Below are positions 1 through 53,239 of a DNA stretch of 64,000 nucleotides, one piece after another. The stretch's first letter is position 1. Every line of letters starts with the position of its first letter. The stretch lies in contig NZ_CP150300.1 of the NCBI RefSeq assembly GCF_037991315.1, positions 1,116,001 through 1,180,000 on the forward strand, in the 5' to 3' direction. This stretch comes from Paenibacillus sp. FSL H8-0079 (lineage in GTDB: Bacteria; Bacillota; Bacilli; Paenibacillales; Paenibacillaceae). The translations under genes were made by a program, and so were the position numbers. Below the pieces are notes generated by a model. It was not told the DNA's origin. It saw only the letters and a list, made by a program, of their open reading frames with translations, and searched no databases.

Positions 1-1
1 T

Positions 2-229
2 GATCTGAACCTCGCGTGTCGGTATGCGCATCACATTGTGGCTGTTCACAACAAGTCCATCTACGCAGAAGGTAAACCGGAGGATATCGTTACACAAGAG
101 ATGGTCCGTAAGGTTTTCCAGATGGAATGTGAGATTGCTGTTGATCCGCTGTTTGGCACACCAACTTGCATCCCACATGGAAGAGGAAGGAAGCTGAATG
201 GGGAACAGCGTTATACACAACTGGCTTGA
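2..229 (+). CDS. ABC transporter ATP-binding protein, C-terminal end (iron-siderophore type), partial
   Basis: The reading frame is open from the left edge, so only about 75 C-terminal residues are present. It starts inside DLNLACRYAHH, the stretch after Walker B that includes the H-loop, and continues with the HNKSIYAEGKP strand and a FGTPTCIPHGR tail. This pattern is typical of FecE/FhuC/YusV ATPases that energise ferric-siderophore import at the cytoplasmic membrane. A GTG at 38 could be read as a start but lies inside the domain. Next to the siderophore biosynthesis operon it fits uptake of the same or a related siderophore. The family is clear; the substrate is inferred. Confidence 0.8.
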   Translation, partial: DLNLACRYAHHIVAVHNKSIYAEGKPEDIVTQEMVRKVFQMECEIAVDPLFGTPTCIPHGRGRKLNGEQRYTQLA

Positions 230-443: not shown

Positions 444-473
444 TTGACAATATAGCTCGAATTGCCATAAAAT
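444..473 (+). promoter_or_regulatory. sigma-A-type promoter of the siderophore operon
   Basis: TTGACA at 444-449 is a perfect -35. TAAAAT at 468-473 is a 5/6 -10 with an 18-bp spacer. The Fur box lies just downstream, where it would block the start site. The 5' leader to the first gene is nearly 300 nt. Confidence 0.7.
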
Positions 474-484
474 AGATTTTGTAT

Positions 485-503
485 GATATTGATAATCATT
501 ATC
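485..503 (+). promoter_or_regulatory. Fur box (iron-dependent operator)
   Basis: GATATTGATAATCATTATC matches the classical 19-bp Fur consensus GATAATGATAATCATTATC at 18 of 19 positions. It starts 12 bp past the -10 hexamer, so Fur-Fe(II) would overlap the transcription start and repress the operon when iron is plentiful. Confidence 0.88.
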
Positions 504-579
504 AATATTAAATTACAATAAAAATTGATGAAAGTATGAGCAATATAAGTTGAACTAATCATTTACATGCAACGGAGAG

Positions 580-691
580 GACAGAAAAAACCTGAAAAAG
601 CGAAGCGTTCGCCTTTATCCCCGGATTTTTCCCTTGAGAAAAGGGAATCAAAAAAATCTGGGGATAACAGCGATTGGAAGGTTGTTCTGTC
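580..691 (+). repeat. large stem-loop element in the siderophore operon leader
   Basis: The inner stem pairs TTATCCCCGGATTTTT (615-630) with AAAAAATCTGGGGATAA (651-667) with one G-U, capped by CCCTT/AAGGG. The outer arms GACAGAA (580-586) and TTCTGTC (685-691) also pair. No T-run follows, so it is not a simple terminator. The layout resembles a miniature intergenic repeat inserted between promoter and gene, but copy number cannot be judged from this window. Confidence 0.55.
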
Positions 692-770
692 ATTGTAGTG
701 TCAGCGTAAATAATCTTTAATTCAACCTATATAGGAGCGAGTACCTTCATTCGATCGAGGAGGATTTTCA

Positions 771-1796
771 GTGTTTCCGAAAGGGATTCATAATCTGCAA
801 AACCGACTCATTATAAGCAAAGCGAGAGAAATGGGCATCACCTGTGAGCCACTTCTTGAGGGATGCGAAGATTTTCTGAAGCTGTCTGTAGGGGACAAGC
901 AGATCATTATTAACAAAACCAGATCTCATCGTCTGCCGTTAATTGCTGGTTTGCTCGCGAAGAACAAGCAGGCATGCAATAAGTTGCTGCATGAACAGGG
1001 CATGCCTGTACCGTCATTTATCGTGATCCCGGAGATGGGAAGCGAAGCAGCAGATTTTCTGAAAAGGCATGGCTCTATTGTAGTGAAACCGCTGGATGCG
1101 AGCAGCAGCATGGGCGTGACGCTGGATGTACGTACCGAAGATGAACTGGAGGCAGCCATTCGTCTTGCGAGTGCCCACGGCAGCAGCATAATGTTGCAGC
1201 AATATGTGACTGGAATCGATTACAGAGTGCTGATTATTAACGGTGAAGTGGCGGCTGTGAATGAGTATCGACCTGTCTATGTTGAGGGAAACGGGACTTC
1301 AACCATACGGGCGTTAATCAAGCAGTTGAATCAGGATCGAATCGAGATGACGCACATTGGCGAGTATGAAGCATTTCCCGAGGTTAATGCAGAAGCTGAA
1401 CGTCTGCTGGAGGTATTACGAGCAGAAGGCATAACACTGGATGAAGTGCCTGCCGCCGGAAAAGAAATCGAGCTATACGATCTCCGTAACTCAGCCGCCG
1501 GAAAAATCAGTGAATTCTACAAGGATTGTACCGAAATCATTCATCCCGAGAATGCGCGAATGATCATTCAGGCGGCAAAGACTCTTCAGATCGATGTAGC
1601 AGGAGTCGATGTTCGTTGTCGTGATATCCGCACCCCGATCTCCAGAGATCAGGGAGGTATCTTAGAAGTAAACGCCTTGCCAGATCTGACACACCACGTC
1701 TTTCCCCATGGTGGAACAACTCGTGATGTGGTTCGGTTATACCTGGAATACCTTTGTCAGCAGCAACTCGAATATAAGACGTATAACAACGGATAA
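771..1796 (+). CDS. ATP-grasp ligase of the siderophore operon
   Basis: GTG start at 771 with AGGAGG at 758-763. The 341-aa product has the ATP-grasp order: an N-terminal subdomain (NKQACNKLLHEQGMPVPSF, about residues 65-83), the ATP-binding strand VVKPLDASSSMGV (about 104), QQYVTGIDYRVLIINGEVAAV (about 143), and the metal-binding end ILEVNALPDLTHH (about 301). It resembles the ligase half of cyanophycin synthetase and GshF-like enzymes, which join a carboxylate to an amine through an acyl-phosphate. It is first in the operon, where staphyloferrin B loci carry the L-Dap genes sbnA/sbnB instead. It may add an amino acid to a siderophore precursor; that role is inference. Confidence 0.8.
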   Translation: MFPKGIHNLQNRLIISKAREMGITCEPLLEGCEDFLKLSVGDKQIIINKTRSHRLPLIAGLLAKNKQACNKLLHEQGMPVPSFIVIPEMGSEAADFLKRHGSIVVKPLDASSSMGVTLDVRTEDELEAAIRLASAHGSSIMLQQYVTGIDYRVLIINGEVAAVNEYRPVYVEGNGTSTIRALIKQLNQDRIEMTHIGEYEAFPEVNAEAERLLEVLRAEGITLDEVPAAGKEIELYDLRNSAAGKISEFYKDCTEIIHPENARMIIQAAKTLQIDVAGVDVRCRDIRTPISRDQGGILEVNALPDLTHHVFPHGGTTRDVVRLYLEYLCQQQLEYKTYNNG

Positions 1797-1864
1797 AAGG
1801 TGTATAAGCAGAATCACAGGCAGCAAGTTCAGCCTGAATCGATTATAAGGAGCGTTAGAGGGCT

Positions 1865-3220
1865 ATGTCAGTAGAAGTGCAGATGGAATATCTGAAGATG
1901 CAAAATGAGAAGGAATCCAATGCAAGATCGTACCCCAGACATTTCCCGCTTGTCATTAGCAAGGCCCATGGGGTGAAGATTACCGATACGGAAGGCCGCG
2001 TATTTTACGACTGTCTGGCTGGTGCAGGAACATTGGCGCTGGGACATAACCATGACACGGTGGTCAACGCCATTCGCGATGTTCTGGATCAGCAGATTCC
2101 GCTACATACACTGGATTTGGCAACGCCGCTGAAGCTTTCATATATGCAAGAACTATTCTCCATCCTTCCGGAAGAAATGCGAGATAAAGCCAAGATTCAG
2201 TTCTGTGGTCCAACCGGAGCGGATGCCGTAGAAGCAGCCATTAAGCTGGTCAAACATGCCACAGGTGGCAAGTCCATTCTTGCCTTTCAAGGTGGTTATC
2301 ACGGTTCAACCCAAGCGACGATGTCGATGAGTGGCAATCTGAGCAAGAAACAGCATCTGCAAAGCCTGCTGCCGGATGTTCATTTCCTGCCGTTTCCTTA
2401 TGAATACCGTTGCCCATTTGGTGTTGGTGAAGGCATGACGGCCCAATTAAGCGCACAGTATATCGAAAACTTACTCGATGATTGTGAGAGCGGTATTGCG
2501 GCACCATGTGGGGTCATTGTAGAGACCGTACAGGGCGAAGGCGGGGCGATTCCGGCAGATATCGAATGGCTCAAGGAGTTACGCCGAATCACAGCAGAGC
2601 GAAATATTCCGCTCATCATCGATGAAGTGCAGACGGGCATTGGACGGACAGGCCGGATGTTTTCATTTGAACATGCCGGAATCATACCCGATGTAATCAT
2701 CTGCTCCAAAGCAGTTGGCGGAAGTTTGCCGATGTCTGTCGTCATCTACAAAGAAGAGCTGGACCAATGGCAGCCTGGTGCACACACAGGTACGTTCCGT
2801 GGCAATCAGCTAGCCATGGCTGCGGGACTTGCCACACTTCGTTTTATCCGGGAACAGGATATCCTGCACAACGTAAATCTGCGTAGCGAGCAATTCATGA
2901 ATCAACTGAATGCATTGAAAGAACGGTATGCACAGATTGGTGACGTGCGGGGCAGAGGGTTGATGATTGGCGTTGAAGTGGTTGATCCAGCAGGACGTAA
3001 GGATCGTCTTGGACATTATCTGCCTAATGGTGCGCTGGCTGAGTCCATTCAGCGTGAATGTTTCAAGAATGGATTAATTGTGGAACTGGGTGGGCGTCAT
3101 TCAGCTGTTGTTCGTTTTCTGCCGCCTCTGAATATTACAGAGCAAGAATCGAACGCGATCCTTGCGATCTTTGAGAAATCGGTAGCTGAAGCGATTGCCC
3201 TAGCAACGGCCGCATGCTGA
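1865..3220 (+). CDS. PLP aminotransferase class III, diaminobutyrate--2-oxoglutarate aminotransferase type
   Basis: 451 aa, the usual length for the Dat/RhbA/AcsF family. The PLP site is visible: GPTGADAVEAAIKLV (115-129) for phosphate binding, IIDEVQTGIGRTG (251-263) with Asp253, and the Schiff-base lysine K282 in CSKAVGGSLP. FRGNQLAMAAG follows. The family transfers an amino group from glutamate to aspartate semialdehyde to give L-2,4-diaminobutyrate. In achromobactin loci the equivalent gene (acsF) supplies the diamine building block, and it probably does so here. A RBS-like AGGAGCG precedes the ATG. The stop overlaps the MFS start by 7 bp. Confidence 0.88.
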   Translation: MSVEVQMEYLKMQNEKESNARSYPRHFPLVISKAHGVKITDTEGRVFYDCLAGAGTLALGHNHDTVVNAIRDVLDQQIPLHTLDLATPLKLSYMQELFSILPEEMRDKAKIQFCGPTGADAVEAAIKLVKHATGGKSILAFQGGYHGSTQATMSMSGNLSKKQHLQSLLPDVHFLPFPYEYRCPFGVGEGMTAQLSAQYIENLLDDCESGIAAPCGVIVETVQGEGGAIPADIEWLKELRRITAERNIPLIIDEVQTGIGRTGRMFSFEHAGIIPDVIICSKAVGGSLPMSVVIYKEELDQWQPGAHTGTFRGNQLAMAAGLATLRFIREQDILHNVNLRSEQFMNQLNALKERYAQIGDVRGRGLMIGVEVVDPAGRKDRLGHYLPNGALAESIQRECFKNGLIVELGGRHSAVVRFLPPLNITEQESNAILAIFEKSVAEAIALATAAC

Positions 3221-4647
3221 AGCTGTCCCTGATGAAGAGGCATGCAGTATTACTCGCGATTCTGATCGGTGCTTTTTCTCTGGTGCTGACCAACAGTGCA
3301 TTTAACCTGCTGCTGCCTTATTTTGTGCAATACTATCAGATCTCTACGACAGCAGGCGGATGGATCATCGCGCTGTACATGCTGGCTATGACGTTAACGA
3401 TGCCGCTGGCTTCCCTGATCGTGGACCGACTGGGCCGTAAGCAGACGTATATGCTGGGCATCACCATCTATGGAGTGTTCTCGGTGGCAGGTGCGTTGTT
3501 TTATCACTCCATCGAAGTACTGTTGCTGGTCCGTTTCATGCATGGGGTCGCGGCAGGGTTGATGATTCCGTTATCGCTTGTGCTGTTGTTTGATGTATAT
3601 GGACCAGAGGTGCGGGGACGAATTACAGGAGCGTGGGGCTTACTGCTTATGCTGGCTCCGGCTGCCGGGCCAACGCTGGGTGGTTTCATCATTCAGTATG
3701 GGCGGCTTGAAATGTTGTTCTGGCTCAATGTGCCACTGGCTGTGTTTTCATTCATCGGGTGCGGTCGAGTCATTCAGACCTATATTCCTGCCCGTAGGAA
3801 AAAATGGCATCCATCCAGTGTCATGATGCTGATCGGCGCTGTAAGTGCCCTTAGTCTGGGGGTGCAGTTGTATTCAAGTCCTGTCGTGGCAGTATGGGTA
3901 CCTTGGCTGCTGATTGCGCTCGGTGTGGTGTTGCTCATTCGTTTTGTCCAGACCGAGAACGGTCGCAAGGAACCGCTGATCCGGTACCAGTTGCTGCGGC
4001 GTAATGCCGTCTTTCCGCTGACCGTATTGATCTCGACCATTCAGGATTGTGTCATGTTTGGTGTGATCTTTGCATTGCCGTTGTTGTTCCAGGACGTCTT
4101 CCACCTGTCGCCGGCCCTGTCCGGTGCGCTGTTCATTCCCTTGTCGATCTGTACAAGTCTGTTCATGTGGATTGGCGGCAGCTTGCTGGATCGCGGTCGG
4201 TCCAGGCATTTTATCGCATGGGGCACGTTGTTGGTGTCGATATCGATCTTGTCGTTTGCAGTTCTGCCCATGGGAGCATCAATCTGGATCATCGGAATAC
4301 TCATGGCGTGCCGGGGAATTGGCGTTGGCCTGTCAGGCATGAGTATCTCTGCTATCGGTTTACAAGCATTACCGGACGAAGACATGCACGAAGGGTCGGT
4401 GTTATCGACCACGATTGAGCGGCTGGCTTCTTCGTTTGCGGTGATGGGCATGACCCTGTATTACGATATGCGTTGGCAATGGCTTGCCGGGGCAGGAACG
4501 TCCATGGAGATGGCCAAATGGGGAGCGCTCAAAGAGATCTGTATCGGACTTGGCTGCGCCATACTGCTTACACTTCCCCTGGTCTTACTTATAACCCGAA
4601 AGAAGGTTGGCATCATTGTTCGAGATGGAAAACAAGCTCCGGTCTGA
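3214..4647 (+). CDS. MFS transporter, DHA2-like, probable siderophore exporter
   Basis: 477 aa with about 14 hydrophobic segments. The MFS motif A appears as DRLGRKQTYM after TM2, and GPTLGGFIIQYG matches the drug:H+ antiporter motif C region. It sits where SbnD (staphyloferrin B) and YhcA (achromobactin) occur, so export of the finished siderophore is the likely role. ATG 3214 overlaps the previous stop; an in-frame ATG at 3232 (MKRHAVLL) is an alternative start. The 3' end overlaps the next gene. Confidence 0.85.
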   Translation: MLKLSLMKRHAVLLAILIGAFSLVLTNSAFNLLLPYFVQYYQISTTAGGWIIALYMLAMTLTMPLASLIVDRLGRKQTYMLGITIYGVFSVAGALFYHSIEVLLLVRFMHGVAAGLMIPLSLVLLFDVYGPEVRGRITGAWGLLLMLAPAAGPTLGGFIIQYGRLEMLFWLNVPLAVFSFIGCGRVIQTYIPARRKKWHPSSVMMLIGAVSALSLGVQLYSSPVVAVWVPWLLIALGVVLLIRFVQTENGRKEPLIRYQLLRRNAVFPLTVLISTIQDCVMFGVIFALPLLFQDVFHLSPALSGALFIPLSICTSLFMWIGGSLLDRGRSRHFIAWGTLLVSISILSFAVLPMGASIWIIGILMACRGIGVGLSGMSISAIGLQALPDEDMHEGSVLSTTIERLASSFAVMGMTLYYDMRWQWLAGAGTSMEMAKWGALKEICIGLGCAILLTLPLVLLITRKKVGIIVRDGKQAPV

Positions 4648-6412
4648 GGCTGAGCAGCAGGCCCATGAACATTCGTGCAAGCTGTTGCTGAACTGTTACA
4701 TCCGTGAGCTTGCGTTAGAGAAGGAAAGCGATATTCCGATCAATCCGAATACGCTGACGTACGCTGTTGCTTTTCAAGCCAGCGGGGTGACGGTGAAGGG
4801 ACAATTGGCCTATTACTCTGCTATGGGAGAGCATGAATACCTCAGCATGCAATCTGGCGGGGAAACCGTGCATTATCGCGACCTAGTTCGCTGGATCACA
4901 TCTGAGCTAAGCGGGAATGGGGAACAGGGAGCGAGTTCGGATCCACATGGAATACTGAAGAGTTCTATGGAAATGAAGCGTTCACTTGAGGTGGATCTTG
5001 CACATCTAAAGGGCGAGAATACGAATCATGTAGAGGCGGCGTATGCCAGAGATTTTGCACAAAAGGTAGATAACAGTGTGGGCAACCTCACGTTGTATAT
5101 CGAACAAGCAGCCGGTCTGGACATCCACGACTATCGGACATCGGAACAGTCACTGTTGTATGGTCATCCGTTCCATCCGTTTCCGAAGAACTCCAAAGGC
5201 TTCAGCGAGCAGGATGTTCAGAAGTACAGTCCGGAGCTACGGACATCGTTTCAACTCTGTTATATCGCCGTAAGGAAGGATGTTTATGTGCAGGAATGGG
5301 TGGATGACGAGGCGGTAATGGATTTGCATAATCTCCTGCGGAGCCATGTGGAGCCGATTTTAAAAGAAAAGAGCGGGATGTATGGGCTGCTGCCTGTTCA
5401 TCCATGGCAATACGCGTACATATCACGGTTGTCCGAGGTACAGCACTATATTCAAGATCAAAAATTAATTCTGCTCGGCAATGCGGGGCCTACCGTCTAC
5501 CCAACTTCTTCGGTCCGTACGGTTTATATTCCGGCATGGAACTGCAATATCAAGCTGTCACTGAACATGCAGATCACGAACATGATTCGCACCAATAGTG
5601 CCGAGCAGATGCGCAGAACACTGGATGCCTCTAAGTACGTCAGCCAGCATGACTGTTTCGGTGCTGAACCGAACACGCATATTGCGTATGAGACAGGCGT
5701 AGCGACATGTGCCTTTGATGATGAAGAGTTAACCAGTCTGTTTACGGTAGCTTATCGGCCCATTGAGTTCGACCCTGCGAATACGTATGTCTTATCCAGT
5801 CTAGTTGAGGCACCGCTTCCAGGGATGCGATCGCGGCTGATGACGTTGCTGTGCGGTGACCGTGACATAGCTGAGCGCTGGCTGGATCGATATCTGCAAT
5901 GTTCTCTACTGCCGATTGTACGGGCGGCGGGTGAGAAAGGCATTCATTTTGAAGCTCATTTGCAGAATACCCTTGTGACCTTAAAGGATGGGTTGCCTGT
6001 TGATTTTATCGTCCGCGATCTGGAAGGGGTCAGTGTGGATGAGGAACTTATAAGTGAGCAAGAACGTGCAGTGTCCGATTTACTATTTTATTCGCGTGAG
6101 AAAGCTTGGGCGCGGACATCGTACTATTTTATCGTTAATCATCTGGGGTCTCTGATTCATGCCATGGCGCGAGATGTGAACGTCCCGGAGGAGCATTTCT
6201 GGAAGCAGGTACGTGAAGTACTTGTAGATGAATTGGAACGAACGGGCAATGCATATGTGCGACATCTGCTGACGACGGATGCATTTCTGGCCAAACAAAA
6301 TTTGGTGAGTTGTCTAAGAGGGATCAGTCAGACCCCGGCTTACGTGCCGGTGAGCAATGTAATGAAACGAATAGGGAGTGAAGTGCGTGGGAGTCGTGGG
6401 ATACAAGGCTGA
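4625..6412 (+). CDS. IucA/IucC family siderophore synthetase (SbnE/AcsC-like)
   Basis: About 595 aa, the usual NIS synthetase size. Visible landmarks: GHPFHPFPKNSKGF near residue 180 (ATP and carboxylate binding), LLPVHPWQY near 257, KLSLNMQITNMIRTNS near 300, EAHLQNTLV near 442 and DLEGVSVD near 466. These enzymes adenylate citrate or a citrate derivative and condense it with an amine or alcohol. ATG 4625 lies inside the end of the MFS gene, so translation is probably coupled; TTG codons at 4607 and 4616 are in frame, and TTG 4616 has AGAAGG nine bases upstream, so the exact start is uncertain. Confidence 0.9.
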   Translation: MENKLRSEAEQQAHEHSCKLLLNCYIRELALEKESDIPINPNTLTYAVAFQASGVTVKGQLAYYSAMGEHEYLSMQSGGETVHYRDLVRWITSELSGNGEQGASSDPHGILKSSMEMKRSLEVDLAHLKGENTNHVEAAYARDFAQKVDNSVGNLTLYIEQAAGLDIHDYRTSEQSLLYGHPFHPFPKNSKGFSEQDVQKYSPELRTSFQLCYIAVRKDVYVQEWVDDEAVMDLHNLLRSHVEPILKEKSGMYGLLPVHPWQYAYISRLSEVQHYIQDQKLILLGNAGPTVYPTSSVRTVYIPAWNCNIKLSLNMQITNMIRTNSAEQMRRTLDASKYVSQHDCFGAEPNTHIAYETGVATCAFDDEELTSLFTVAYRPIEFDPANTYVLSSLVEAPLPGMRSRLMTLLCGDRDIAERWLDRYLQCSLLPIVRAAGEKGIHFEAHLQNTLVTLKDGLPVDFIVRDLEGVSVDEELISEQERAVSDLLFYSREKAWARTSYYFIVNHLGSLIHAMARDVNVPEEHFWKQVREVLVDELERTGNAYVRHLLTTDAFLAKQNLVSCLRGISQTPAYVPVSNVMKRIGSEVRGSRGIQG

Positions 6413-8366
6413 AGCAGGCGGCAGGACAGAAGCAGTATACGTGGGTGTACAAGAACGGATCATGCGGCAGACGCTGGAGGCGATGTGGTTTGAAGGCATC
6501 TTGGACAGTCATGTAAGTGGGAGCGAGTGGAGAACCAGCGGCCTTACATCTTCCGGCGATTCTGTAGCGTACACGTGTGAAGCGGAGCGAAAGTTTTCAT
6601 TTGGTCGGGTGAAGGTGAAGAAGGGATCGATTCAGAGGGAAGGCGTTTCCTGCACCGATCTGGATCTGTTTTTGGAGGAAATCGTGCTGAACGCATTAAA
6701 GGGTGCAAACGTGACGGCTTTTATCCAGGAACTGCTCGAAACGATGGCAAAGGACAGTCAGTGCCGAGCAATATTACCCTTGAACATTCCGAGTGAAGAT
6801 CGGCATTATGATGCGCTCGAAAGTCACATGACCGACGGTCATTTGTACCACCCGAGCTATAAGTCGAGACTGGGATTTTCTTTGAAAGACAATCTGGCCT
6901 ATGGCCCTGAATTTAACTCGGAGGTTGCATTAGTCTGGGTTGCTGTGAAAAAAGAATTGGCTCAGACCGCTGTATCCACGGGGTATACCTCTGAAGAATT
7001 GGTGGGGCAGCATCTGACCGCAGAGGACGTAGAGCGATTTCAACAGATCCTACAACAACAAGGTCGTACGGACACGGGCGAGAACGTCAAGGCATATGCG
7101 GCGAGTGCAGATCAGCTTGGTAGCAGTGCCGAGGTTGGTGAAATAACAGCTGTTCAAGATAGCTTAATAGGCTCGAGCGTTGGTAGCAAAGACAGCAAGG
7201 TGGATGGGGAAATAGGTTCTGACGCGGATGATCGCTATGTGTTCATTCCAGTTCATCCATGGCAATGGGAGCATCAGTTGGAATCGGTATTTGCCCGTCA
7301 GCGCATGGATGGGGACATCGTGTATCTTGGTCCATCGTCTTCGCCCTATCGTGCACAGCAATCGATTCGTTCGCTCTCGAACCGGGTAAATCCGGAGGCA
7401 CCTTACATCAAGCTGGCCCTTAGCATCACCAACACATCGAGCACACGTATTCTGGCACAGCATACGACCCAGAACGCGCCACTGATCAGCGATTGGCTGG
7501 ATGAACTTGTTCGTGAAGATGAGCTGTTGCAGCAGGCGCAGTTTGCCATTTTAAAAGAAATCATGGGACTGTCGTTCCGTTATGAGCAGTTGCCTGCAAC
7601 GCAGTATGGACGGGCCTACGGCACACTCGGTGCGATCTGGCGGGAGAATGTATCGGTTCATCTGAAGGAAGGCGAGACGGCGTGGCCGCTGAATGCACTG
7701 ATGTTGGTGCAGCCGGATGGTGTTCCGTTTATCCAGAATGCTGTAGAACGACATGGTGTGGAAAAGTGGAGCGAGGCCCTTGTTCGCACAGTTACACTGC
7801 CGATTATTCATTTGCTCTATGCACACGGGATTGCGCTGGAATCTCATGCTCAGAATATCATTTTGGTGCTGGAAGATGATCTACCGAAACGAATCATTAT
7901 CAAGGATCTGCATGATGGTGTTCGCTACGTACCGGATCAACTGTTGCACCCGGAACGGGCACCGAAGCTGAACCCCGAGCCAGAAACTCACCGTAAATTC
8001 AATCGGTATTCCTTCATCTATGCCGGAGATGTGTCGGAAGTCCGCGATTATACGTATGACGCATTCTTCTTTATCTGTATGACAGATATTGCGTTGGCTT
8101 TGGAGAAGTTTGGATTGTCCGAAGAAGCGTTCTGGCAACTGTGCGCAGATGTAATTGTAGATTATCAGAAGCAGCACCCGGAGTATATGGAACGGTTCGT
8201 TGCATTTGACCTTTTTGCCGAAGATGCACTGATCGAAGAGATGACGAAGCGCCGTCTGTATGGGGATGGAGAGTTATATTTCCGCAAGGCGAGCAATCCG
8301 CTCAAGATATCAAAGGATGCACTTGAATCACAGGGAACACCCGAATTAAAAGGAATCGTCGAATGA
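6387..8366 (+). CDS. IucA/IucC family siderophore synthetase (SbnF-like) with central insertion
   Basis: About 659 aa, some 60 longer than usual. Landmarks: DGHLYHPSYKSRLGF (about 150), VFIPVHPWQWEHQLE (about 285), KLALSITNTSSTRIL (about 344), ESHAQNIILVLED (about 488) and IKDLHDGVRY (about 509). The extra length is a Gly/Ser/Asp-rich, low-complexity stretch between about residues 218 and 280, just before the HPWQ motif. GTG 6387 is favoured because GGGAG at 6374-6378 sits 8 nt upstream; GTG 6378 is also in frame. The gene overlaps its neighbours at both ends (ATGA at the 3' end). Confidence 0.88.
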   Translation: MGVVGYKAEAGGRTEAVYVGVQERIMRQTLEAMWFEGILDSHVSGSEWRTSGLTSSGDSVAYTCEAERKFSFGRVKVKKGSIQREGVSCTDLDLFLEEIVLNALKGANVTAFIQELLETMAKDSQCRAILPLNIPSEDRHYDALESHMTDGHLYHPSYKSRLGFSLKDNLAYGPEFNSEVALVWVAVKKELAQTAVSTGYTSEELVGQHLTAEDVERFQQILQQQGRTDTGENVKAYAASADQLGSSAEVGEITAVQDSLIGSSVGSKDSKVDGEIGSDADDRYVFIPVHPWQWEHQLESVFARQRMDGDIVYLGPSSSPYRAQQSIRSLSNRVNPEAPYIKLALSITNTSSTRILAQHTTQNAPLISDWLDELVREDELLQQAQFAILKEIMGLSFRYEQLPATQYGRAYGTLGAIWRENVSVHLKEGETAWPLNALMLVQPDGVPFIQNAVERHGVEKWSEALVRTVTLPIIHLLYAHGIALESHAQNIILVLEDDLPKRIIIKDLHDGVRYVPDQLLHPERAPKLNPEPETHRKFNRYSFIYAGDVSEVRDYTYDAFFFICMTDIALALEKFGLSEEAFWQLCADVIVDYQKQHPEYMERFVAFDLFAEDALIEEMTKRRLYGDGELYFRKASNPLKISKDALESQGTPELKGIVE

Positions 8367-9139
8367 GGATTAACACGCTGAAGGAAAAGATTGCACGTAA
8401 ACAGCCAGTGTATGGCCTTTTTGTATCCATTCCGCATCCGGTCATCATCGAGATGATCGGCCATGCGGAGTATGACTTTGTCATTATTGATCTGGAACAT
8501 GCCGCAACATCGATGGAATCGGTGGAAGAGTTGGTTCGTGCAGCGGAACTGGTCGGCTTAACCCCGTTGGTTCGGATTTCGAAGGTGGAGCGAGCGGAGA
8601 TTCTTAAAGTGCTTGACTGTGGCGCACAAGGGATCGTCATTCCGCATGTCGAGCAAGTGGAGCAGGTGGAAGAAGCGGTTCGTCACGCTTACTATCATCC
8701 GGTTGGCATGCGGAGCTTGAATAGCGGTCGTCCCGGTGTATTCGGTAAATATCCGCTCACGGGATATATCGAGGAAGCTAATGAACAAGTGATGGTTGTA
8801 CCGATGATCGAAAGTGCGGAGGGCGTGCGGCAAAGTGCACAGATTCTGTCTCACCCTCAGGTGAACTTTGTATTGGAAGGGGCGGCAGATCTGTCGCAAT
8901 CCCTCGGCGTGCCATGGCAGACCGAGCACCCAGATGTGAGACGTGCGCTGGATAAATTGCATGCTATCGCGCATCAGTGCGAAGTACCTTATGCTACGGT
9001 CACTAGAGGCGTGGATGACATGTCGCTCTGGGCTGAGCGGGGAGTACATATATACGTGCTTGGTGATGATCGGAATACGGCGTTTCGGGCATATGCCCAA
9101 AAACGGAATGACTACAGGAATGCGGGTGGGCAGATATGA
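8363..9139 (+). CDS. HpcH/HpaI aldolase family protein, SbnG-like citrate synthase
   Basis: 258 aa, the same length class as SbnG of the staphyloferrin B locus. The class II aldolase barrel shows VIIDLEHAA (metal and acid residues), QGIVIPHVEQ, RSLNSGRPGVFGKY and VVPMIESAEGV. SbnG makes citrate from oxaloacetate and acetyl-CoA without the TCA-cycle enzyme, giving a citrate supply dedicated to the siderophore; achromobactin loci carry the equivalent AcsB. ATGA overlaps couple it to both neighbours. The specific reaction is inferred from family and operon position. Confidence 0.85.
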   Translation: MRINTLKEKIARKQPVYGLFVSIPHPVIIEMIGHAEYDFVIIDLEHAATSMESVEELVRAAELVGLTPLVRISKVERAEILKVLDCGAQGIVIPHVEQVEQVEEAVRHAYYHPVGMRSLNSGRPGVFGKYPLTGYIEEANEQVMVVPMIESAEGVRQSAQILSHPQVNFVLEGAADLSQSLGVPWQTEHPDVRRALDKLHAIAHQCEVPYATVTRGVDDMSLWAERGVHIYVLGDDRNTAFRAYAQKRNDYRNAGGQI

Positions 9140-10491
9140 AACCTAGTGTATGGCATGCGATTGATGAACTGCAATGCGGGACGGAAGACCCGGTATGTGC
9201 TTACGTCTATGATCTGGCTGGCATTCAGGAACAGGTACGTCAGATGTTAGACAGCATGCCTGGGAACACACAGTTGTTCTACGCCATTAAGGCGAATCCA
9301 GATCCGCGGATCATTGAGGCGTTGCTTCCATTGGTGAAGGGCTTTGAAGTGGCTTCAATTGGAGAGTTGCTCAAGGTTAGAGCTGTAAGCCAAGCAGTTC
9401 CGATTCTGTTCGGTGGTCCGGGTAAAAAGGAGAGCGAGCTGAGGCTAGCCATCGAGAATGGCGTGAGTTACATCCATGTGGAAAGTTTGCTGGAGCTGCG
9501 GCGCATCATCGCGATTGCGAAAGAGCGAGAGAAGGAGCATGTTCAGGTGGAGGGGAGCAAGCAAAAGCAAGAATGGAACCGGAAATCGGAGCAGGGATAT
9601 ATGCAAGCGTACGGCGAGGAACGGATGCAAGCGCAGGAGGTTCGCATTCTGCTCCGAATAAACCTGCGAAGCAGTACGCTACCTCGGACGAAGATTGTTA
9701 TGGGCGGTGGGCCGAGTCCTTTTGGAATCGATGAAGAGGCGGTGGAAGAAGCCATCGAACTTATTTGTGTGGAAGGCGCGGGTTTAGTTCGGTTAAGCGG
9801 GTTCCACTTTCACTCCTTGTCCAACAATATGGACGCCAGGCTGCATGCCGAGATGATCGAACTGTATTTGCAAAAGGTGGAGCAGTGGCAGCAGCAGTAT
9901 GATCTTCCTGTGGAAGTGGTGAATGCAGGAGGTGGGTTCGGTGTCACGTATGATGGTAGTCCCGGATTCGACTGGCCCTTGTTCACTTCTCTGCTGGAGC
10001 AAAGTGAAGCCAGAGAGCGCCTTGCTTCACGCGGAGGCCAGCTGTATTTTGAATCGGGTCGACTGCTGGTGGCAGACCACGGGTATTACGCCGCAGAGGT
10101 TACGGATATCAAAACCTCTCATGATCAGTATTTTGCTGTGTTAAGGGGAGGTACGCACCACAATCGTTTGCCTGCTTCATGGGGACATAACCACCCGTTT
10201 CAAATTATGGAGACGGACCGATGGAAGCATTCATTTGACCGACCAGAGGTAGGAAATGGTCGAGTCCATATCGTAGGTGAGCTGTGTACACCGAAGGATC
10301 GCATGCATTCCGATGCGGAGATAGCGCTGCTACGGGTAGGAGACATTGTTGTATTTGAAAAGTCTGGAGCTTATTGCTGGACCATTTCGCATCATGATTT
10401 TCTGGGGCATCCGCACCCGGCATTCCATTATCTAACGGAGGACAATAATCATGTCAACACTGATGAAGCGTTCCAGTCTGCAAGCCGCTGA
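9136..10491 (+). CDS. PLP-dependent fold-III decarboxylase (SbnH/AcsE-like)
   Basis: 451 aa. The PLP lysine is K52 in LFYAIKANPDP. Other family marks are GGGPSPFGID, FHFHSLSNNMDA, FESGRLLVADHGYYAAEV and GELCTPKDRMHSD, as in diaminopimelate/ornithine-type decarboxylases. SbnH removes CO2 from the growing staphyloferrin B intermediate, and AcsE makes ethanolamine from serine; the substrate here cannot be read from sequence. A charged Lys/Glu/Gln-rich insertion sits at about residues 136-168, making the protein longer than the roughly 400-aa SbnH. ATGA overlap with the aldolase; the 3' end runs 41 bp into the next gene. Confidence 0.87.
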   Translation: MKPSVWHAIDELQCGTEDPVCAYVYDLAGIQEQVRQMLDSMPGNTQLFYAIKANPDPRIIEALLPLVKGFEVASIGELLKVRAVSQAVPILFGGPGKKESELRLAIENGVSYIHVESLLELRRIIAIAKEREKEHVQVEGSKQKQEWNRKSEQGYMQAYGEERMQAQEVRILLRINLRSSTLPRTKIVMGGGPSPFGIDEEAVEEAIELICVEGAGLVRLSGFHFHSLSNNMDARLHAEMIELYLQKVEQWQQQYDLPVEVVNAGGGFGVTYDGSPGFDWPLFTSLLEQSEARERLASRGGQLYFESGRLLVADHGYYAAEVTDIKTSHDQYFAVLRGGTHHNRLPASWGHNHPFQIMETDRWKHSFDRPEVGNGRVHIVGELCTPKDRMHSDAEIALLRVGDIVVFEKSGAYCWTISHHDFLGHPHPAFHYLTEDNNHVNTDEAFQSASR

Positions 10492-12298
10492 ACGCGGGAT
10501 TATGGCTGATCTGATGAATTCATTCTTGTCGGAGCAATTGCTTCCACTGGAAGGGTATTCGTTCATTGATTTTGCCGCGGCCCCTGCACCGTTCCGTCGA
10601 TTGTACAAGGGATATGACAGCGAAGAGCATAATCAGAATGTAGCTTCTCGCTATAGATTACACACTCAAGGTGTACTGTGTCTGGTTGAAGCAGGGGTGA
10701 GACAGGGGACTCAATGGGTTCAGGGTTCACCGATCTATGAGGAGAAAGCAGATGGAATCTGGGTTCTCCTTGATTCTCCGGTAGAGGTTGGACGTGCGGT
10801 GTTACAGAAGGTTTTGTCGGATGAGGCTTATACGCAGCCCGGAGTGGCAGAGTTTCTTGCTAGTCTCGACATTGCTGTGGAGCAGTATGCTCTGGGCTGG
10901 GAACAAGTCCAGTATCTGTCCGCCAATGTCCCGGCGTCTGCTTATGAGTGGTTTATCAAGGGTGAGCGCGTTGCGGCATTGCGGGATCGTCCATTTCACC
11001 CATCGTCCAAAGCCAAGGTGGGATTCAACGCAGAAGATGTAACACGCTATGCAGCGGAATTCGGGAAGGCGATTTCGCTGCGCTGGGTGGCTATACGGCT
11101 GGATGCCGTGCAGCAAGGGTGTGAAGATGGGCTGTCCATTTTGGACGTGTTAGACGATGTTCAGCGCGGAGTGGTGGAAGCCGAGTTTGCCCAAAAAGGG
11201 ATCACGTTGGATGAATATCTGCCGATGCCTGTACATCCGTGGCAATTGCAGCATATGATTCTGCCCCGTTTCACTGGGGAGATCGAAGAAGGCAGCATTG
11301 TCGTATTGGACCTAGAAGTGGGCGACGTACAGGCAACATCCTCTCTACGCTCGATGGCTCCGTCAACCGAATCTAATCTGATGCTCAAGCTACCGGTTAG
11401 TGTGCTGTCACTGGGGGCTGCTCGCTATCTTCCCGTAGTCAAGCTGCTGAATGGTCTTGCTGGGGAACGGATGCTCCGACAGGCCGTTGCGTGTGACGAG
11501 ACGTTGAAGGACAAGGTGTTCATGTGCGAAGAGCAGAACTGGTGGGGCTTTATGCCAGAATCCATGGGACTGTTCGATGATCATCCACGCCATCTGGCTG
11601 CACAGATTCGTGTGTATCCCGCTGAATTGCTTAATGAAGCCTACAAAGTCATTCCAATGGCTGCACTGGGTGTGAATCTGGAAGGTAACCATCTATTAAA
11701 GGACATTCTGGGTGATGATCTGAGCAGCACGAATGTTCTCGACTTTTATGCCAGTATAGCTACGACGTTTTATGATATCGTGATGCGTCTGTTCAAGGTG
11801 GGTGTTGTACCTGAGATTCATGGTCAGAACTGTTGTCTGGTGTTACGAGATAATCAGGTAAAAGGTCTCTTGTTCCGCGATCATGATTCCGTGCGTCTGC
11901 ATCAGCCTTATCTGGACAAGCATGGGATCGCAGACCCTGCTTATCATATTCGCCCAGGCTACTCGAACAGCTTGTATAACGAGACGATTCAGAAGCTGAT
12001 TTTCTATGTGCAATCTTTGGGGACGCAGGTGAATCTGGCTGCGATCATGGAGGCACTCAGCGAGGTGTATCACATCCCGGAAACGAAGTTATGGGAGATC
12101 ACGGAGCAGGCTTGGAAGGAAGCGCTGCAACATGTGCAGCTTCCCCAATCCGACCGGGCCGCGCTCGCTCATGCGATATTTGAGAGCGAGGAATGGCCCG
12201 TGAAGTTAGTTGTCCGTCCGCTGCTTGAAGCGGATGGGGTGCCTGGCGCGATGCCATCGGGCAAAGGCGTAGGGTGGAACCCTTTTTACAAGGGATAG
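10451..12298 (+). CDS. IucA/IucC family siderophore synthetase (AcsD/SbnC-like)
   Basis: 615 aa. Motifs: RDRPFHPSSKAKVGF (about 178), LPMPVHPWQLQH (about 256), ATSSLRSMAPSTESNLMLKL (about 298), EIHGQNCCLVLRD (about 457) and LLFRDHDSVRL (about 475). The C-terminal LLEADGVPGAM...GWNPFY is typical of AcsD-like type A enzymes that attack a prochiral carboxyl of citrate. GGAGG at 10437-10441 precedes ATG 10451. Last gene of the operon, with a strong hairpin terminator 65 bp downstream. In sbn operons the equivalent SbnC is near the front, so the position differs. Confidence 0.9.
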   Translation: MSTLMKRSSLQAAERGIMADLMNSFLSEQLLPLEGYSFIDFAAAPAPFRRLYKGYDSEEHNQNVASRYRLHTQGVLCLVEAGVRQGTQWVQGSPIYEEKADGIWVLLDSPVEVGRAVLQKVLSDEAYTQPGVAEFLASLDIAVEQYALGWEQVQYLSANVPASAYEWFIKGERVAALRDRPFHPSSKAKVGFNAEDVTRYAAEFGKAISLRWVAIRLDAVQQGCEDGLSILDVLDDVQRGVVEAEFAQKGITLDEYLPMPVHPWQLQHMILPRFTGEIEEGSIVVLDLEVGDVQATSSLRSMAPSTESNLMLKLPVSVLSLGAARYLPVVKLLNGLAGERMLRQAVACDETLKDKVFMCEEQNWWGFMPESMGLFDDHPRHLAAQIRVYPAELLNEAYKVIPMAALGVNLEGNHLLKDILGDDLSSTNVLDFYASIATTFYDIVMRLFKVGVVPEIHGQNCCLVLRDNQVKGLLFRDHDSVRLHQPYLDKHGIADPAYHIRPGYSNSLYNETIQKLIFYVQSLGTQVNLAAIMEALSEVYHIPETKLWEITEQAWKEALQHVQLPQSDRAALAHAIFESEEWPVKLVVRPLLEADGVPGAMPSGKGVGWNPFYKG

Positions 12299-12362
12299 AG
12301 GTTGAGTAGTGTTGGTGTAGGAGTGTATAGAGAAGAAGTGGCGTGCTAAAGGATGGATCTAG

Positions 12363-12392
12363 AAGGTGACCCGTTTGATGGGTTGCCTTTTT
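12363..12392 (+). terminator. intrinsic terminator of the siderophore operon
   Basis: AAGGTGACCC (12363-12372) pairs over ten positions (two G-U) with GGGTTGCCTT (12380-12389) around loop GTTTGAT, followed by a short T-run. It ends the operon. Confidence 0.85.
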
Positions 12393-46100: not shown

Positions 46101-47357
46101 ATGGCGATTTCTGTCGTGAAAGGCCAGAAGAGTGATCTGACCAAAACCAATCCGGGCTTGTCCCGTCTAACGGTAGGCATTGGTTGGGAGGCAGCCTCGG
46201 GTGTGGAGCTGGACACATCAGCATTCCTTCTGGGTTCAGACAATAAAGTGGCTGGAGATGAGGATTTTATCTTTTATAACCAGCCCTCTACCTCGTTCAT
46301 CACGTATAAGGATGGCGGGCAGGTTGGTGGCGAGAAGAAACAGTTCGCCATTGATCTTGACAAAATTCCTGCTCGAATTGAGAAAATCGCCTTCAGCCTG
46401 ACGATTCATGACGGTGAAGCACGAAGCCATCATTTTGGACAGGTTCAGCATGGTTTTCTACGGTTTGCCAATGCAGCTACAGGTCAGGAAGTGATGAGAT
46501 ACGATCTGGGGAGCGGTTTTACAGTGGAGACCGCGATTGTCATCGGTGAATTGTATCGCCATAACGGAGAATGGAAGTTCAATGCAATAGGATCGGGTTT
46601 TGCAGGTGGTTTGAATGCACTCTGCGCTAACTTTGGTGTGGATGTGGATGGTGGATCAGAACCTGCACCAACGACTTCAACCGTTCCTCCGACAGCTGTA
46701 CCTACTCCACCACCCCCGGTGCCCGCACCAGAACCGACGCCTTCCCCTGTGAATTCGATCAATTTCAGCAAAATCGAATTGAAGAAGAAGGGCGACACCA
46801 TTAACCTCAAGAAAAATGCGGGGGGACTTGGTGAAATCCTGATTAACCTGAACTGGAATCAACAGGGTAGCAAAGGGTTATTTGGTCGTAGCAAGAGTGT
46901 GGATCTGGACTTGGGTTGCCTGTTCGAGATGAAGGATGGTACACGGGACGTGATTCAGGCTTTGGGACAAACGTTTGGCTCACTGAACCGTTTCCCTTAC
47001 ATTGCTCTGGATGGGGATGACCGGACGGGATCGGTTAAGACGGGAGAGAATCTACGGATTAATGGTGCCCGCATCTCGGAAATTGAGCGTATCCTGGTAT
47101 TTACCTATATTTATGGTGGTGTGGCCAACTGGTCTCAAGTAGACGGTGTGGTAACCATTCAGCAGAAGGACGGTCCCGATATCATTGTTCGAATGAACGA
47201 ATACGGGAGTCCGCTCGGCATGTGTGGCATTGCCATGTTACGCAATGTGAACAATGAGACATTCAGCATTGAACGAATCGTGCAGTTCTATAATGGGCAT
47301 CAGGCGTTGGACGAAGCTCATGACTGGGGAATGCAGTGGGTTGCAGGAAGAAAATAA
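46101..47357 (+). CDS. TerD-TerA-like fusion protein with proline-rich linker
   Basis: 418 aa. Residues 1-182 are a TerD domain ([34 protein letters not shown]), but the stretch corresponding to GDNRTGxGDGDDE reads SFITYKDGGQVGGEKKQ, so the main calcium site is lost. Residues about 185-217 are a Pro/Thr linker (PTPPPPVPAPEPTPSP). The C-terminal part (about 218-418; INLKKNAGGLGEILINLNW, GLFGRSKSVDLDLGC, ALDGDDRTGS) is a second, TerA-like domain with acidic ligands. Ends the first block of the locus before a terminator. Confidence 0.85.
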   Translation: MAISVVKGQKSDLTKTNPGLSRLTVGIGWEAASGVELDTSAFLLGSDNKVAGDEDFIFYNQPSTSFITYKDGGQVGGEKKQFAIDLDKIPARIEKIAFSLTIHDGEARSHHFGQVQHGFLRFANAATGQEVMRYDLGSGFTVETAIVIGELYRHNGEWKFNAIGSGFAGGLNALCANFGVDVDGGSEPAPTTSTVPPTAVPTPPPPVPAPEPTPSPVNSINFSKIELKKKGDTINLKKNAGGLGEILINLNWNQQGSKGLFGRSKSVDLDLGCLFEMKDGTRDVIQALGQTFGSLNRFPYIALDGDDRTGSVKTGENLRINGARISEIERILVFTYIYGGVANWSQVDGVVTIQQKDGPDIIVRMNEYGSPLGMCGIAMLRNVNNETFSIERIVQFYNGHQALDEAHDWGMQWVAGRK

Positions 47358-47446
47358 TCATTCGTAATTATTCAATATAAATGCTGTATCGGTCAGCACC
47401 ATTGCAAGGATACTGTTGACCAACGTTATCCTCGATAATAGACCAT

Positions 47447-47479
47447 CAATCCCTCCAGATTAAGGAGGGATTGGTTTTT
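47447..47479 (+). terminator. intrinsic terminator inside the ter locus
   Basis: CAATCCCTCC (47447-47456) pairs perfectly with GGAGGGATTG (47464-47473), followed by GTTTTTA. It separates the TerB/TerD block from the biosynthetic block, which then depends on read-through or an unseen promoter. Confidence 0.8.
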
Positions 47480-47546
47480 ATGCCCCGACAGCTGGAATCA
47501 ATTCATGCAGATTGGCTATTGCCAAAGGTGCGAGGAGGAGACAATC

Positions 47547-48767
47547 CTGAAATATTTCAATTTTTTGAGTCTGGAAGAAGAAGATACTTTATTTTTCTCT
47601 TCACCCGTCTCGTTCAATCACCGGACTTCCAAAGATTTACTGGCATATGCTGTTGGGGCTGCTTTATATATGCCCGCGACGCGCACACATATCGCGGACG
47701 ACATTATGAATGGTAAGCATGAAGGTCTAACGACTATTATTATTGATCTGGAAGACGCTGTGGGTGACGACCAAGTGGAGTTTGCCGAACAGTGTCTGGT
47801 ACAGCATCTAACTCAACTGATGACTTATATGGAGACAGGCATGCTTAGTCAGGATCGAATGCCTCTTCTGTTTGCTCGTGTACGTTCACCACAACAGTTG
47901 GAACGTATGATTGATACGTTGGGAGAACTGGTATCCATGCTGACAGGCTTGGCTTTGCCCAAGTTTTGTGTGGATAATGGCAGAGCCTATTTCGATCAAA
48001 TCCGCAAATACAATCAACTGAAACCGGAGCATTATCCTGTTCTCTATGGCATGCCCATATTGGAGACTGCTTCGATAATCTATCGGGAGACACGTTGGGA
48101 GACTTTGCTGGACCTTCGAAACATCCTCGATGAGAATGATGAATATGTGCTTAATGTACGCATTGGTGCAACCGATTTCTCTAGCTTGTTTGGATTACGT
48201 CGAAGCCCGGAATTGACTATATACGATATCGCCACGATCCGTGACTGCATCTCGGATATTATCAATCTGTTCGGACGGATGGACAAGCCGTATGTGATCT
48301 CAGGTCCTGTCTGGGAATATTTCAGTCAGCGGGAGCGCGTGTTCAAACCTCAATTACGACAGACCCCATTCGAAGAAACCCTGGGCAAATCAGGGCTGCA
48401 TCTGAGAATGAAATATATTACGAACACAATGGATGGATTGATGCGTGAAGTCATGATGGACAAGGAAAATGGAATTGTAGGCAAAACGATCATTCATCCT
48501 TCTCATATTAAGCCCGTACAAGCGATGTACGTTGTTACACATGAAGAATATTCCGATGCACAAGACATCATCGCCCGTAATGACGGTAGCCTGGGTGTGT
48601 TCAAAAGTAATTACTATAACAAAATGAATGAGATTAAACCACACTTGAGCTGGGCAAATCGAATTCTAATCCGATCACAAATATATGGGGTGTTACATGA
48701 ACAGCAGCATTTTGTCGGGCTCTTGCCCAAGCACGAACAACAACATAACTACGTTCCCAATTCTTGA
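47547..48767 (+). CDS. CitE-like HpcH/HpaI lyase-family protein of the ter locus
   Basis: About 406 aa. GGAGGAG at 47534-47540 is ideally spaced for CTG 47547, which gives (M)KYFNFLSLEEEDTLFF, the normal N-terminus of this family; ATG 47505 has no ribosome-binding site. The barrel shows LYMPATRTHIADDIM, TIIIDLEDAVGDDQV (metal acids), LFARVRSPQQL, YGMPILET and VRIGATDFSSLFGLR. Related to CitE/malyl-CoA lyases but conserved with ter genes, where comparative work on Ter systems places it in a pathway to a nucleoside-like compound. Its actual substrate is unknown. Confidence 0.82.
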   Translation: MKYFNFLSLEEEDTLFFSSPVSFNHRTSKDLLAYAVGAALYMPATRTHIADDIMNGKHEGLTTIIIDLEDAVGDDQVEFAEQCLVQHLTQLMTYMETGMLSQDRMPLLFARVRSPQQLERMIDTLGELVSMLTGLALPKFCVDNGRAYFDQIRKYNQLKPEHYPVLYGMPILETASIIYRETRWETLLDLRNILDENDEYVLNVRIGATDFSSLFGLRRSPELTIYDIATIRDCISDIINLFGRMDKPYVISGPVWEYFSQRERVFKPQLRQTPFEETLGKSGLHLRMKYITNTMDGLMREVMMDKENGIVGKTIIHPSHIKPVQAMYVVTHEEYSDAQDIIARNDGSLGVFKSNYYNKMNEIKPHLSWANRILIRSQIYGVLHEQQHFVGLLPKHEQQHNYVPNS

Positions 48768-51278: not shown

Positions 51279-52126
51279 TGATCTACGCAAGTGATCTGGA
51301 CCAGACGCTGGTGTACTCCCGTCGTGCGCTCCGTATTCCCGAAGATACACCGGGACTTGTTCCCGCAGAGTGGATTAACGGCAAGTTGTCCGCTTTTATG
51401 TCAGCATATGCACTGGAGCGCTTGCAGTCTTTGCCACAAGACATTGTATTTATGCCTGTGACTACACGTACAGTGGAGCAGTATCGGCGCATTCATATTT
51501 TTCAGAGCGAATGTATTCCGAAATATGCGGTGACGAGCAATGGTGGCAACATTATTGTTGACGGTCAGGTAGACGATGAATGGAATCTGCATATTCGTTC
51601 TTTGCTTCGTCAGGAGGCAGCTACTCCTGAAGAGATCCTGGATTTGTTTGATGACGTACTGAGCCCGGAATGGGTGATTAATCAGCGATTGTGTGATGAG
51701 CTGTTCTTTGCATTGTTGATCGAACGTGACAAGCTTCCAATGGAGCATATTGCGGAAAAGATTCGGGTGTTAGAGACACTGGGATGGGAGAGTTCAATCC
51801 AGGGTCGGAAGCTCTATCTGGTGCCTTCGGCCGTAAACAAACGAGCTGCAGTGGAGCATATTAGGCAACGCATTGGCGATGTGCCTGTGATTGCTTCGGG
51901 TGATTCCTTGCTAGATCGTTGTTTGCTGGACTTTGCGCAGCATGCCATTGCTCCATCTCACGGAGAGTTGCATGTGGAGAGACAGCGTGTACCTGAGCAA
52001 GTACCGTATCAATTTACGGAACAATTCGGTGCATTTGCAGCAGATGAGATTCTCGATTACGTTCACCGTATTCATAACGATCAACAGACCCAGATAGACC
52101 ATGCCGAGATAAGGGAGACCGTATAA
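51275..52126 (+). CDS. HAD-superfamily phosphatase of the ter locus
   Basis: 283 aa from ATG 51275 (or 51278), with GGAGGTGGCGGAG just upstream and ATGA overlap. HAD motif I YASDLDQTLVY (DxDxT), motif II PVTTRTVEQYRR, and motif III/IV region VNKRAAVEHI and ASGDSLLDRCLLD. Resembles sucrose-phosphatase/Cof-type hydrolases. Probably dephosphorylates an intermediate made by the neighbouring PRTases. Confidence 0.82.
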   Translation: MMIYASDLDQTLVYSRRALRIPEDTPGLVPAEWINGKLSAFMSAYALERLQSLPQDIVFMPVTTRTVEQYRRIHIFQSECIPKYAVTSNGGNIIVDGQVDDEWNLHIRSLLRQEAATPEEILDLFDDVLSPEWVINQRLCDELFFALLIERDKLPMEHIAEKIRVLETLGWESSIQGRKLYLVPSAVNKRAAVEHIRQRIGDVPVIASGDSLLDRCLLDFAQHAIAPSHGELHVERQRVPEQVPYQFTEQFGAFAADEILDYVHRIHNDQQTQIDHAEIRETV

Positions 52127-53176: not shown

Positions 53177-53195
53177 CTGAGAATTTTCATCAACA

Positions 53196-53225
53196 TTGAC
53201 ACCTTCTGGATGGTTTTTTTACAAT
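53196..53225 (+). promoter_or_regulatory. sigma-A-type promoter candidate for the xpaC-like/telA pair
   Basis: TTGACA (53196-53201, perfect) and TACAAT (53220-53225, 5/6) with an 18-bp spacer, 98 bp before the next start codon. The spacer's T-run also trails the preceding gene. Confidence 0.6.
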
Positions 53226-53239
53226 ACGGATAAGAGGTT

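Follow-up and report, generated by a model that had tools for sequence, protein, structure and literature searches.

Among the described pathways closest to the locus studied here, staphyloferrin B is assembled, according to passages of PMC3179956 and PMC9301485, by SbnE joining citrate to L-2,3-diaminopropionate (L-Dap), SbnH decarboxylating the product, SbnF adding a second L-Dap and SbnC adding 2-oxoglutarate. Passages on achromobactin have AcsD making O-citryl-L-serine in the starting step (PMC3323832) and AcsE decarboxylating it (PMC7857480), with the L-2,4-diaminobutyrate (Dab) of this siderophore proposed to come from AcsF (PMC3179956). Here we analyzed an operon of eight genes, A to H, in Paenibacillus sp. 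FSL H8-0079 that resembles both pathways and begins with an ATP-grasp ligase gene. It lies in a window of 64,000 nucleotides, positions 1116001–1180000 of the 6.7-Mb single-contig genome. We favor, without great assurance, the reading that this is a Fur-repressed operon for a carboxylate siderophore independent of nonribosomal peptide synthetases (an NRPS-independent siderophore, NIS), a Dab analog of staphyloferrin B carrying one more amide-linked unit.

The eight genes span window positions 771–12298 on the forward strand and are joined by overlaps or small gaps only. The first-pass annotation of the window had placed them in this order between a Fur-box promoter and a terminator, and this account held: all eight frames are intact and open and their families were confirmed.

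444–473, forward strand: sigma-70-type promoter TTGACA-18-TAAAAT, 11 of 12 matches, a consensus match only
484–504, forward strand: Fur box with its core at 490–504, a perfect 15-mer TGATAATCATTATCA; a Fur-like core recurs in relatives
771–1796, forward strand: gene A, stand-alone cyanophycin-synthetase-like (RimK-type) ATP-grasp ligase, 341 amino acids (Pfam, NCBIfam, PDB sequence comparison)
1865–3220, forward strand: gene B, diaminobutyrate–2-oxoglutarate aminotransferase, Dat/AcsF-like (NCBIfam)
3214–4647, forward strand: gene C, major facilitator superfamily (MFS) exporter (Pfam, NCBIfam)
4607–6412, forward strand: gene D, type A IucA/IucC synthetase, SbnE side (Pfam, trees, alignment columns)
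6378–8366, forward strand: gene E, type C IucA/IucC synthetase, AcsC/SbnF-like (Pfam, NCBIfam, tree)
8363–9139, forward strand: gene F, SbnG/AcsB-like citrate synthase (Pfam, PDB comparison)
9136–10491, forward strand: gene G, SbnH-like pyridoxal phosphate (PLP) decarboxylase (Pfam, PDB comparison, tree)
10451–12298, forward strand: gene H, type B IucA/IucC synthetase, AcsA/SbnC-like (Pfam, NCBIfam, tree)
12361–12391, forward strand: intrinsic-terminator-like hairpin with T run, −17.7 kcal/mol, z −4.1

The Pfam families are, in order of first appearance, RimK-type ATP-grasp, class III aminotransferase, MFS, IucA/IucC with FhuF (three genes), HpcH/HpaI and Orn/DAP/Arg decarboxylase. Genes D, E and H scored 160.9–250.8 bits against PF04183 (cut-off 25), as NIS synthetases do, and gene B reached 729 bits with NF005393, the model of the diaminobutyrate–2-oxoglutarate transaminase subfamily (cut-off 671). 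Gene F matched PDB entry 4tv5, presumably SbnG, with 207 bits, and gene G matched 6knh, which we take to be SbnH, with 349 bits. PMC7857480, in one passage, gives the name SbnH to a related entry, 6knk. Two gene starts are uncertain: gene D may begin at TTG 4607 or at the in-frame ATG 4625, and gene E at GTG 6378 or at the in-frame ATG 6462. As a set, the genes almost certainly form a siderophore operon.

The first-pass annotation had made its proposal depend on the ATP-grasp gene being conserved with the rest of the cluster, and the two proved closely linked. Among 394 genomes of the family, the window's own included, an ATP-grasp match was present in 60 at E <= 1e-30 and, at E <= 1e-60, a gene D match in 88. 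In 53 of the 394, gene A and gene D matches shared contig and strand, gene A lying 673–3233 bases upstream (distances measured between matches), and these were all 53 genomes whose gene D match reached about 50% identity or more; gene A was a neighbor in none of the 35 family genomes with a distant gene D match (45% identity or less). The remaining seven ATP-grasp matches were 29–34% identical, belonged to open frames of 618–953 amino acids and never stood beside gene D. The genus sample behaved likewise, the 32 of 75 genomes with a strong ATP-grasp match (E < 1e-100) being the same 32 with a strong gene D match (E < 1e-90). On the contrast between 53/53 and 0/35 we rejected gene A as a passenger, and the ligase is very probably part of the pathway.

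Cluster contexts were inspected in 11 named loci, L042, L049, L050 (which has broken frames), L060–L080, L083–L087, L088 and L092; some of the named loci are the same places as genomes in the genome set. All eight proteins matched in the same order in 11 of the 11 named Paenibacillus loci, with gene H running off the fetched stretch in these loci and gene G in pieces in L015. The named loci found with gene A, 73–95% identical, are all from Paenibacillus (P. amylolyticus, P. xylanexedens and relatives), and each of the 21 distant family loci L060–L080 has gene A together with genes D and H. In a class-wide sample, gene A was found in 19 of 398 genomes (E <= 1e-50), five of them outside the family; two of these five carry the cluster (L088, with several genes in two frames, and L092) and three lack NIS genes (L089–L091). 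The surroundings of five of the 35 distant-D genomes were either of SbnA/SbnB/SbnH type (L045, L048, L051) or of Dat type (L043, L044). Two weaker gene D matches from the genus search, L046 and L047, show the window's gene order without the ATP-grasp gene; L047 has Dat, and none was seen in the fetched stretch of L046. The Dat-type loci L043 and L044 represent another Paenibacillus NIS cluster, with a luciferase-like monooxygenase and an RraA-like gene, in whose fetched stretch no decarboxylase or citrate synthase was seen.

Among solved structures, the one nearest to gene A in sequence is that of cyanophycin synthetase, in its ATP-grasp part (PDB 7wac, 151 bits). Gene A has only 341 amino acids and lacks the remaining parts of that enzyme, and it is not recognized as the full-length form (224.8 bits against the full cyanophycin synthetase model, cut-off 877). 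In the alignment of gene A, 53 positions are invariant in all 34 cluster-linked rows, among them K106, E299 and N301, which we take to be the ATP-grasp core. Seven of the 53, including Y166, C283 and D305, differ in all three cluster-free relatives, and D305 is aligned to the Gly of the cyanophycin synthetase stretch EVNAAPG. The ratio of nonsynonymous to synonymous substitution rates (dN/dS) was 0.10 in two comparisons and a third was dS-saturated, four neighboring genes giving 0.03–0.19; judged from these ratios, gene A is under purifying selection.

The AlphaFold model of gene A, built with 12 close sequences, had a mean local confidence (pLDDT) of 39, too poor to use. One result tells against assigning this ligase to siderophore assembly: the 20-kb surroundings fetched for the relatives in L089–L091, 41–43% identical, contained no NIS gene, so this ATP-grasp family has other uses. 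(In L089 and L090, the two checked, the stand-alone ATP-grasp gene adjoins a gene for an RsgA-type GTPase.) The enzyme might not build the secreted siderophore at all and instead make a precursor dipeptide, modify the chelator for export or release, or protect the cell. The existence of relatives outside siderophore clusters fits such roles, as does the position of gene A, first in the operon and adjoining Dat. Its strict association with one type of gene D, and the presence of an ATP-grasp gene in vibrioferrin-type clusters too, argue the other way, and we consider a role outside assembly unlikely, if still worth keeping in mind.

The first-pass annotation had also proposed that the ATP-grasp enzyme adds a peptide or amide bond, which would give a carboxylate siderophore of neither type. 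A gene of this kind has precedent in vibrioferrin-type clusters, although there it encodes an enzyme of a different subfamily. A passage of PMC12838400 likewise annotates an ATP-grasp gene in a vibrioferrin-type cluster of Piscirickettsia. Identity of gene A with PvsA was rejected, the subfamily, Pfam and NCBIfam profiles being different from those of Vibrio PvsA. In one and the same run, three PvsA proteins (Vibrio, Cupriavidus, Pantoea) were 41–48% identical to one another and matched gene A at E 0.03 or worse; pairwise BLASTP of gene A and PvsA gave E 0.008 over 144 residues. Any role common to the two would be convergent at most. Since gene A resembles cyanophycin synthetase and not PvsA, siderophore pathways have probably recruited ATP-grasp ligases at least twice.

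The decision between staphyloferrin B and achromobactin chemistry turns on genes D and G. A synthetase tree of 64 rows put gene D within type A on the SbnE side, which has 99/93 support, gene E in type C together with AcsC/SbnF and gene H in type B together with AcsA/SbnC; reference clusters carry labels such as SbnE and PvsD because of their gene content and not because their products had been tested. With a larger reference set, to which five clusters fetched after the first approximately unbiased (AU) tests were added (Bacillus badius, Agrobacterium, Methylocystis, Cupriavidus and Pantoea), the AU test rejected gene D grouping with AcsD/PvsD (P = 0.0073) and gene G with AcsE/PvsE (P = 0.0126), so that the serine-type AcsD/AcsE pair of achromobactin was not found. 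In two columns close to the reported acceptor site, corresponding to AcsD 443 and 505, 5 of 5 serine-type rows have Pro and Cys, and 22 of 22 others, the window included, have Ala together with Tyr or His. Trees and columns thus place genes D and G, as far as sequences can tell, on the staphyloferrin B (SbnE/SbnH) side.

This assignment has its difficulties. With the smaller reference sets a serine-side placing survived the AU test for both D (P = 0.141) and G (P = 0.354), the tree program warned of long branches in several reference rows, and the Moraxella row stood on the SbnE side in the 64-row tree and next to the serine side in the later tree of gene D. Gene H reached 381 bits against the SbnC cut-off of 700 and gene E 492 against the SbnF cut-off of 900, these curated models being of NCBI's narrow "exception" kind. 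The AcsD residues reported in a passage of PMC3323832 to read the acceptor, E442, R501 and K563, are identical in all 27 rows and therefore do not discriminate Dab from Dap or Ser, and the same paper has AcsD using L-Dab only just above background. Finally, in locus L083 (genome G026) neither Dat nor the MFS gene stands between genes A and D and the rest is kept, with only a 39% identical class III relative of the aminotransferase elsewhere in its genome; it offers a natural test of the Dab source.

The operon could instead make achromobactin or a close analog, gene D esterifying citrate with serine, gene G forming O-citryl-ethanolamine, E and H adding Dab and 2-oxoglutarate and the ATP-grasp enzyme being an accessory. 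The cluster of Sodalis plasmid pSG1, which we take, from gene content, to be of achromobactin type, has counterparts of seven of the eight functions, and gene B supplies the Dat-type aminotransferase of that pathway. Genes E and H are also nearer AcsC and AcsA than SbnF and SbnC, weakly so for E (86/89), and the AU tests with fewer references leave the serine side of D and G standing. Against this, the larger set rejects that side for both genes and the 443/505 columns of gene D are of the SbnE kind, making achromobactin rather unlikely as the product.

For the diamino acid, the first-pass annotation had proposed Dab, and the searches agreed: Dat is in the operon, and with one Paenibacillus query each, SbnB had no match in the genome at E <= 1e-10 and SbnA found relatives of 35% identity only, a level common to all six genomes searched and one that we ascribe to CysK-like genes. 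The SbnA and SbnB pair of staphyloferrin B was thus not recovered, and Dap supplied by SbnA/SbnB from elsewhere in the genome was rejected. With these results, and with Dat encoded in the operon, both positions of the scaffold are likely to hold Dab rather than Dap.

In the staphyloferrin B-like scheme that we prefer, gene F would make citrate and Dat (gene B) Dab. Gene D would form the amide of citrate and Dab, analogous to SbnE with Dap, and gene G would decarboxylate N-citryl-Dab, giving N-citryl-1,3-diaminopropane, just as citryl-Dap is treated by SbnH. Gene E would then join another Dab to the remaining arm of citrate and gene H cap an amine with 2-oxoglutarate. We regard this scaffold, with Dab in place of Dap, as reasonably probable. 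Gene A would form one further amide or peptide bond to an amino acid or similar unit, on a free amine or a carboxylate; vibrioferrin's PvsA acts on a free amine and cyanophycin synthetase on a carboxylate. That the ligase indeed adds such an extra amide-linked unit is, in our estimate, an evenly balanced proposition. The product would be exported by gene C and its ferric complex imported by the ABC (ATP-binding cassette) system encoded upstream.

The product could also be the plain Dab analog of staphyloferrin B, the ATP-grasp enzyme being redundant with one of the three synthetases. Passages of PMC9301485 and PMC3179956 indicate that three synthetases and a decarboxylase are enough for the staphyloferrin B scaffold, and the L047 cluster has Dat, MFS and D–H-like genes without an ATP-grasp gene; as gene A has been retained and is under purifying selection, we think redundancy very improbable. 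The calculated formula of the plain Dab scaffold is C18H28N4O11 (476.175 Da; [M+H]+ 477.183), and one added residue would shift the ion to, for example, 548.220 (Ala), 592.210 (Asp) or 577.246 (Dab). Taking the extended Dab scaffold as the preferred product, we tentatively propose, at slightly less than an even chance, an NIS family defined by a cyanophycin-synthetase-like ATP-grasp ligase that was recruited apart from PvsA, adds an amide-linked unit to a Dab staphyloferrin B scaffold and extends through Paenibacillaceae and two other families of the class.

The promoter-like site, Fur box and terminator-like hairpin appear to delimit the operon. Fur control, claimed by the first-pass annotation, was borne out by the perfect core and by a Fur-like core that precedes gene A in every one of 12 loci (the window and L009–L019). 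Allowing two mismatches, the core TGATAATCATTATCA had two overlapping matches in the window against 0.61 expected; 11 shuffled sequences likewise reached two matches, so the weight rests on the perfect core, its location and its conservation. The hairpin at 12361–12391 was absent from the output of the simple scan that had picked out the promoter-like site, and Rfam at gathering thresholds gave no match anywhere in the window. The operon is probably iron-controlled through Fur.

1–229, forward strand: 3' end of the ATPase gene of a siderophore-uptake operon, the rest lying outside the window (L020, 6230–10229)

This uptake operon, directly upstream, encodes a substrate-binding protein, two permeases and the ATPase, and 9 of 11 related loci have all four, in unchanged order, ahead of gene A. 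The sequence thus indicates both the iron regulation and the uptake genes expected for an NIS locus, through the Fur-like core and the adjacent uptake operon. In L012 and L013 (also G067 and G033) the binding protein and both permeases are lost and the ATPase is reduced to about its last quarter, with the biosynthesis genes kept; no close copy of the binding protein was found elsewhere in the L012 and L013 genomes, the best relatives being 31–33% identical.

543–734, forward strand: dispersed hairpin repeat of 192 bp resembling a miniature inverted-repeat transposable element, an insertion in the leader and not part of the operon proper

Neither this repeat nor the uptake operon had been noticed by the first-pass annotation. 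The genome holds at least 40 copies, this one included, plus a fragment (40 of 245 candidates scored); the repeat has similar inverted ends, folds into a single long hairpin (−62.4 kcal/mol, z −6.7) and had no Rfam or phage match. In 3 of 11 relatives (L010, L018, L019) it was not found upstream of gene A, and the distance from Fur box to gene A start is 70–82 bp there versus 281 in the window. GAGC flanks the window repeat on both sides and occurs once in the empty site of L010, which suggests that the insertion likely made a 4-bp target duplication. In L012 and L013 the repeat is itself split by an insertion. Because the repeat follows the Fur box, the leader transcript should include it.

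Gene content varies among the cluster loci. No MFS gene was seen in L060–L064, L079, L080 and L083. L079 is without a separate gene F and L080 without a separate gene E, each beside an over-long frame, and gene H of L080 is only 37% identical to that of the window. Of 24 distant loci, all but L077, L079 and L088 (21 loci) have a same-strand frame of 258–338 amino acids directly before gene A. In the four tested, L042, L060, L066 and L072, Pfam confirmed it as FhuF-like with a 2Fe-2S C-terminal domain (for example L042:13955–14731, just upstream of the ATP-grasp gene); such a gene probably serves iron release, and none was seen upstream of gene A in the window or in L084–L087. Elsewhere in the window, 46101–55191 holds a tellurite/stress (Ter) cluster with TerD, C-C bond lyase, PRTase_2/TRSP, StiP-PELOTA, ATPgrasp_Ter and TelA.

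In the openly licensed PMC literature (titles, starts of abstracts and passages), no description of this cluster appeared among the matches listed; a passage of PMC11233627 mentions that two Paenibacillus strains carry an IucA/IucC-like cluster left unidentified. If the proposal is true, common Paenibacillus bacteria would make a further siderophore scaffold, and a second, independent ATP-grasp ligase would have been joined to an adenylating NIS pathway. No known chemistry is overturned, and the product is directly testable.

Set beside the known systems, the window shares with Sodalis pSG1 (L021) Dat, an MFS gene, three IucA/IucC genes, an AcsB-like citrate synthase, a PLP decarboxylase and ABC uptake genes; unlike the window, that cluster has no annotated ATP-grasp gene, and its type A synthetase and decarboxylase are on the serine side. 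The first-pass annotation had read the operon as mixing staphyloferrin B and achromobactin logics. SbnE/SbnH-side D and G genes beside Dat agree with this, but the Sodalis cluster has SbnG- and SbnH-like genes beside Dat as well, so their presence together is in itself no mixture. With staphyloferrin B-type clusters (L025, L094) the window has in common the order MFS-E-F-G-H, the SbnE/SbnH-side enzymes and siderophore-uptake genes nearby, and it differs in having Dat instead of sbnA and sbnB, the SbnC-like gene last and the ATP-grasp gene added. Vibrioferrin-type pvsABCDE clusters (L024, L095, L096) likewise carry IucA/IucC genes, an MFS gene, a PLP decarboxylase and, in first place or close to it, an ATP-grasp gene, but their synthetases number two, the stretch has no annotated Dat, and PvsA belongs to another ATP-grasp subfamily. 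The Paenibacillus L047 cluster has the order Dat-MFS-D-E-F-G-H and a gene G in the sister group of the window's (99/98), whereas its genome has no ATP-grasp match and its proteins are 32–63% identical to those of the window where listed; the two cluster types form a natural pair for the effect of one added ligase on siderophore and transporter. An NIS carboxylate siderophore operon is of a known kind, and what is new is the added ligase with a Dab/SbnE/SbnH core.

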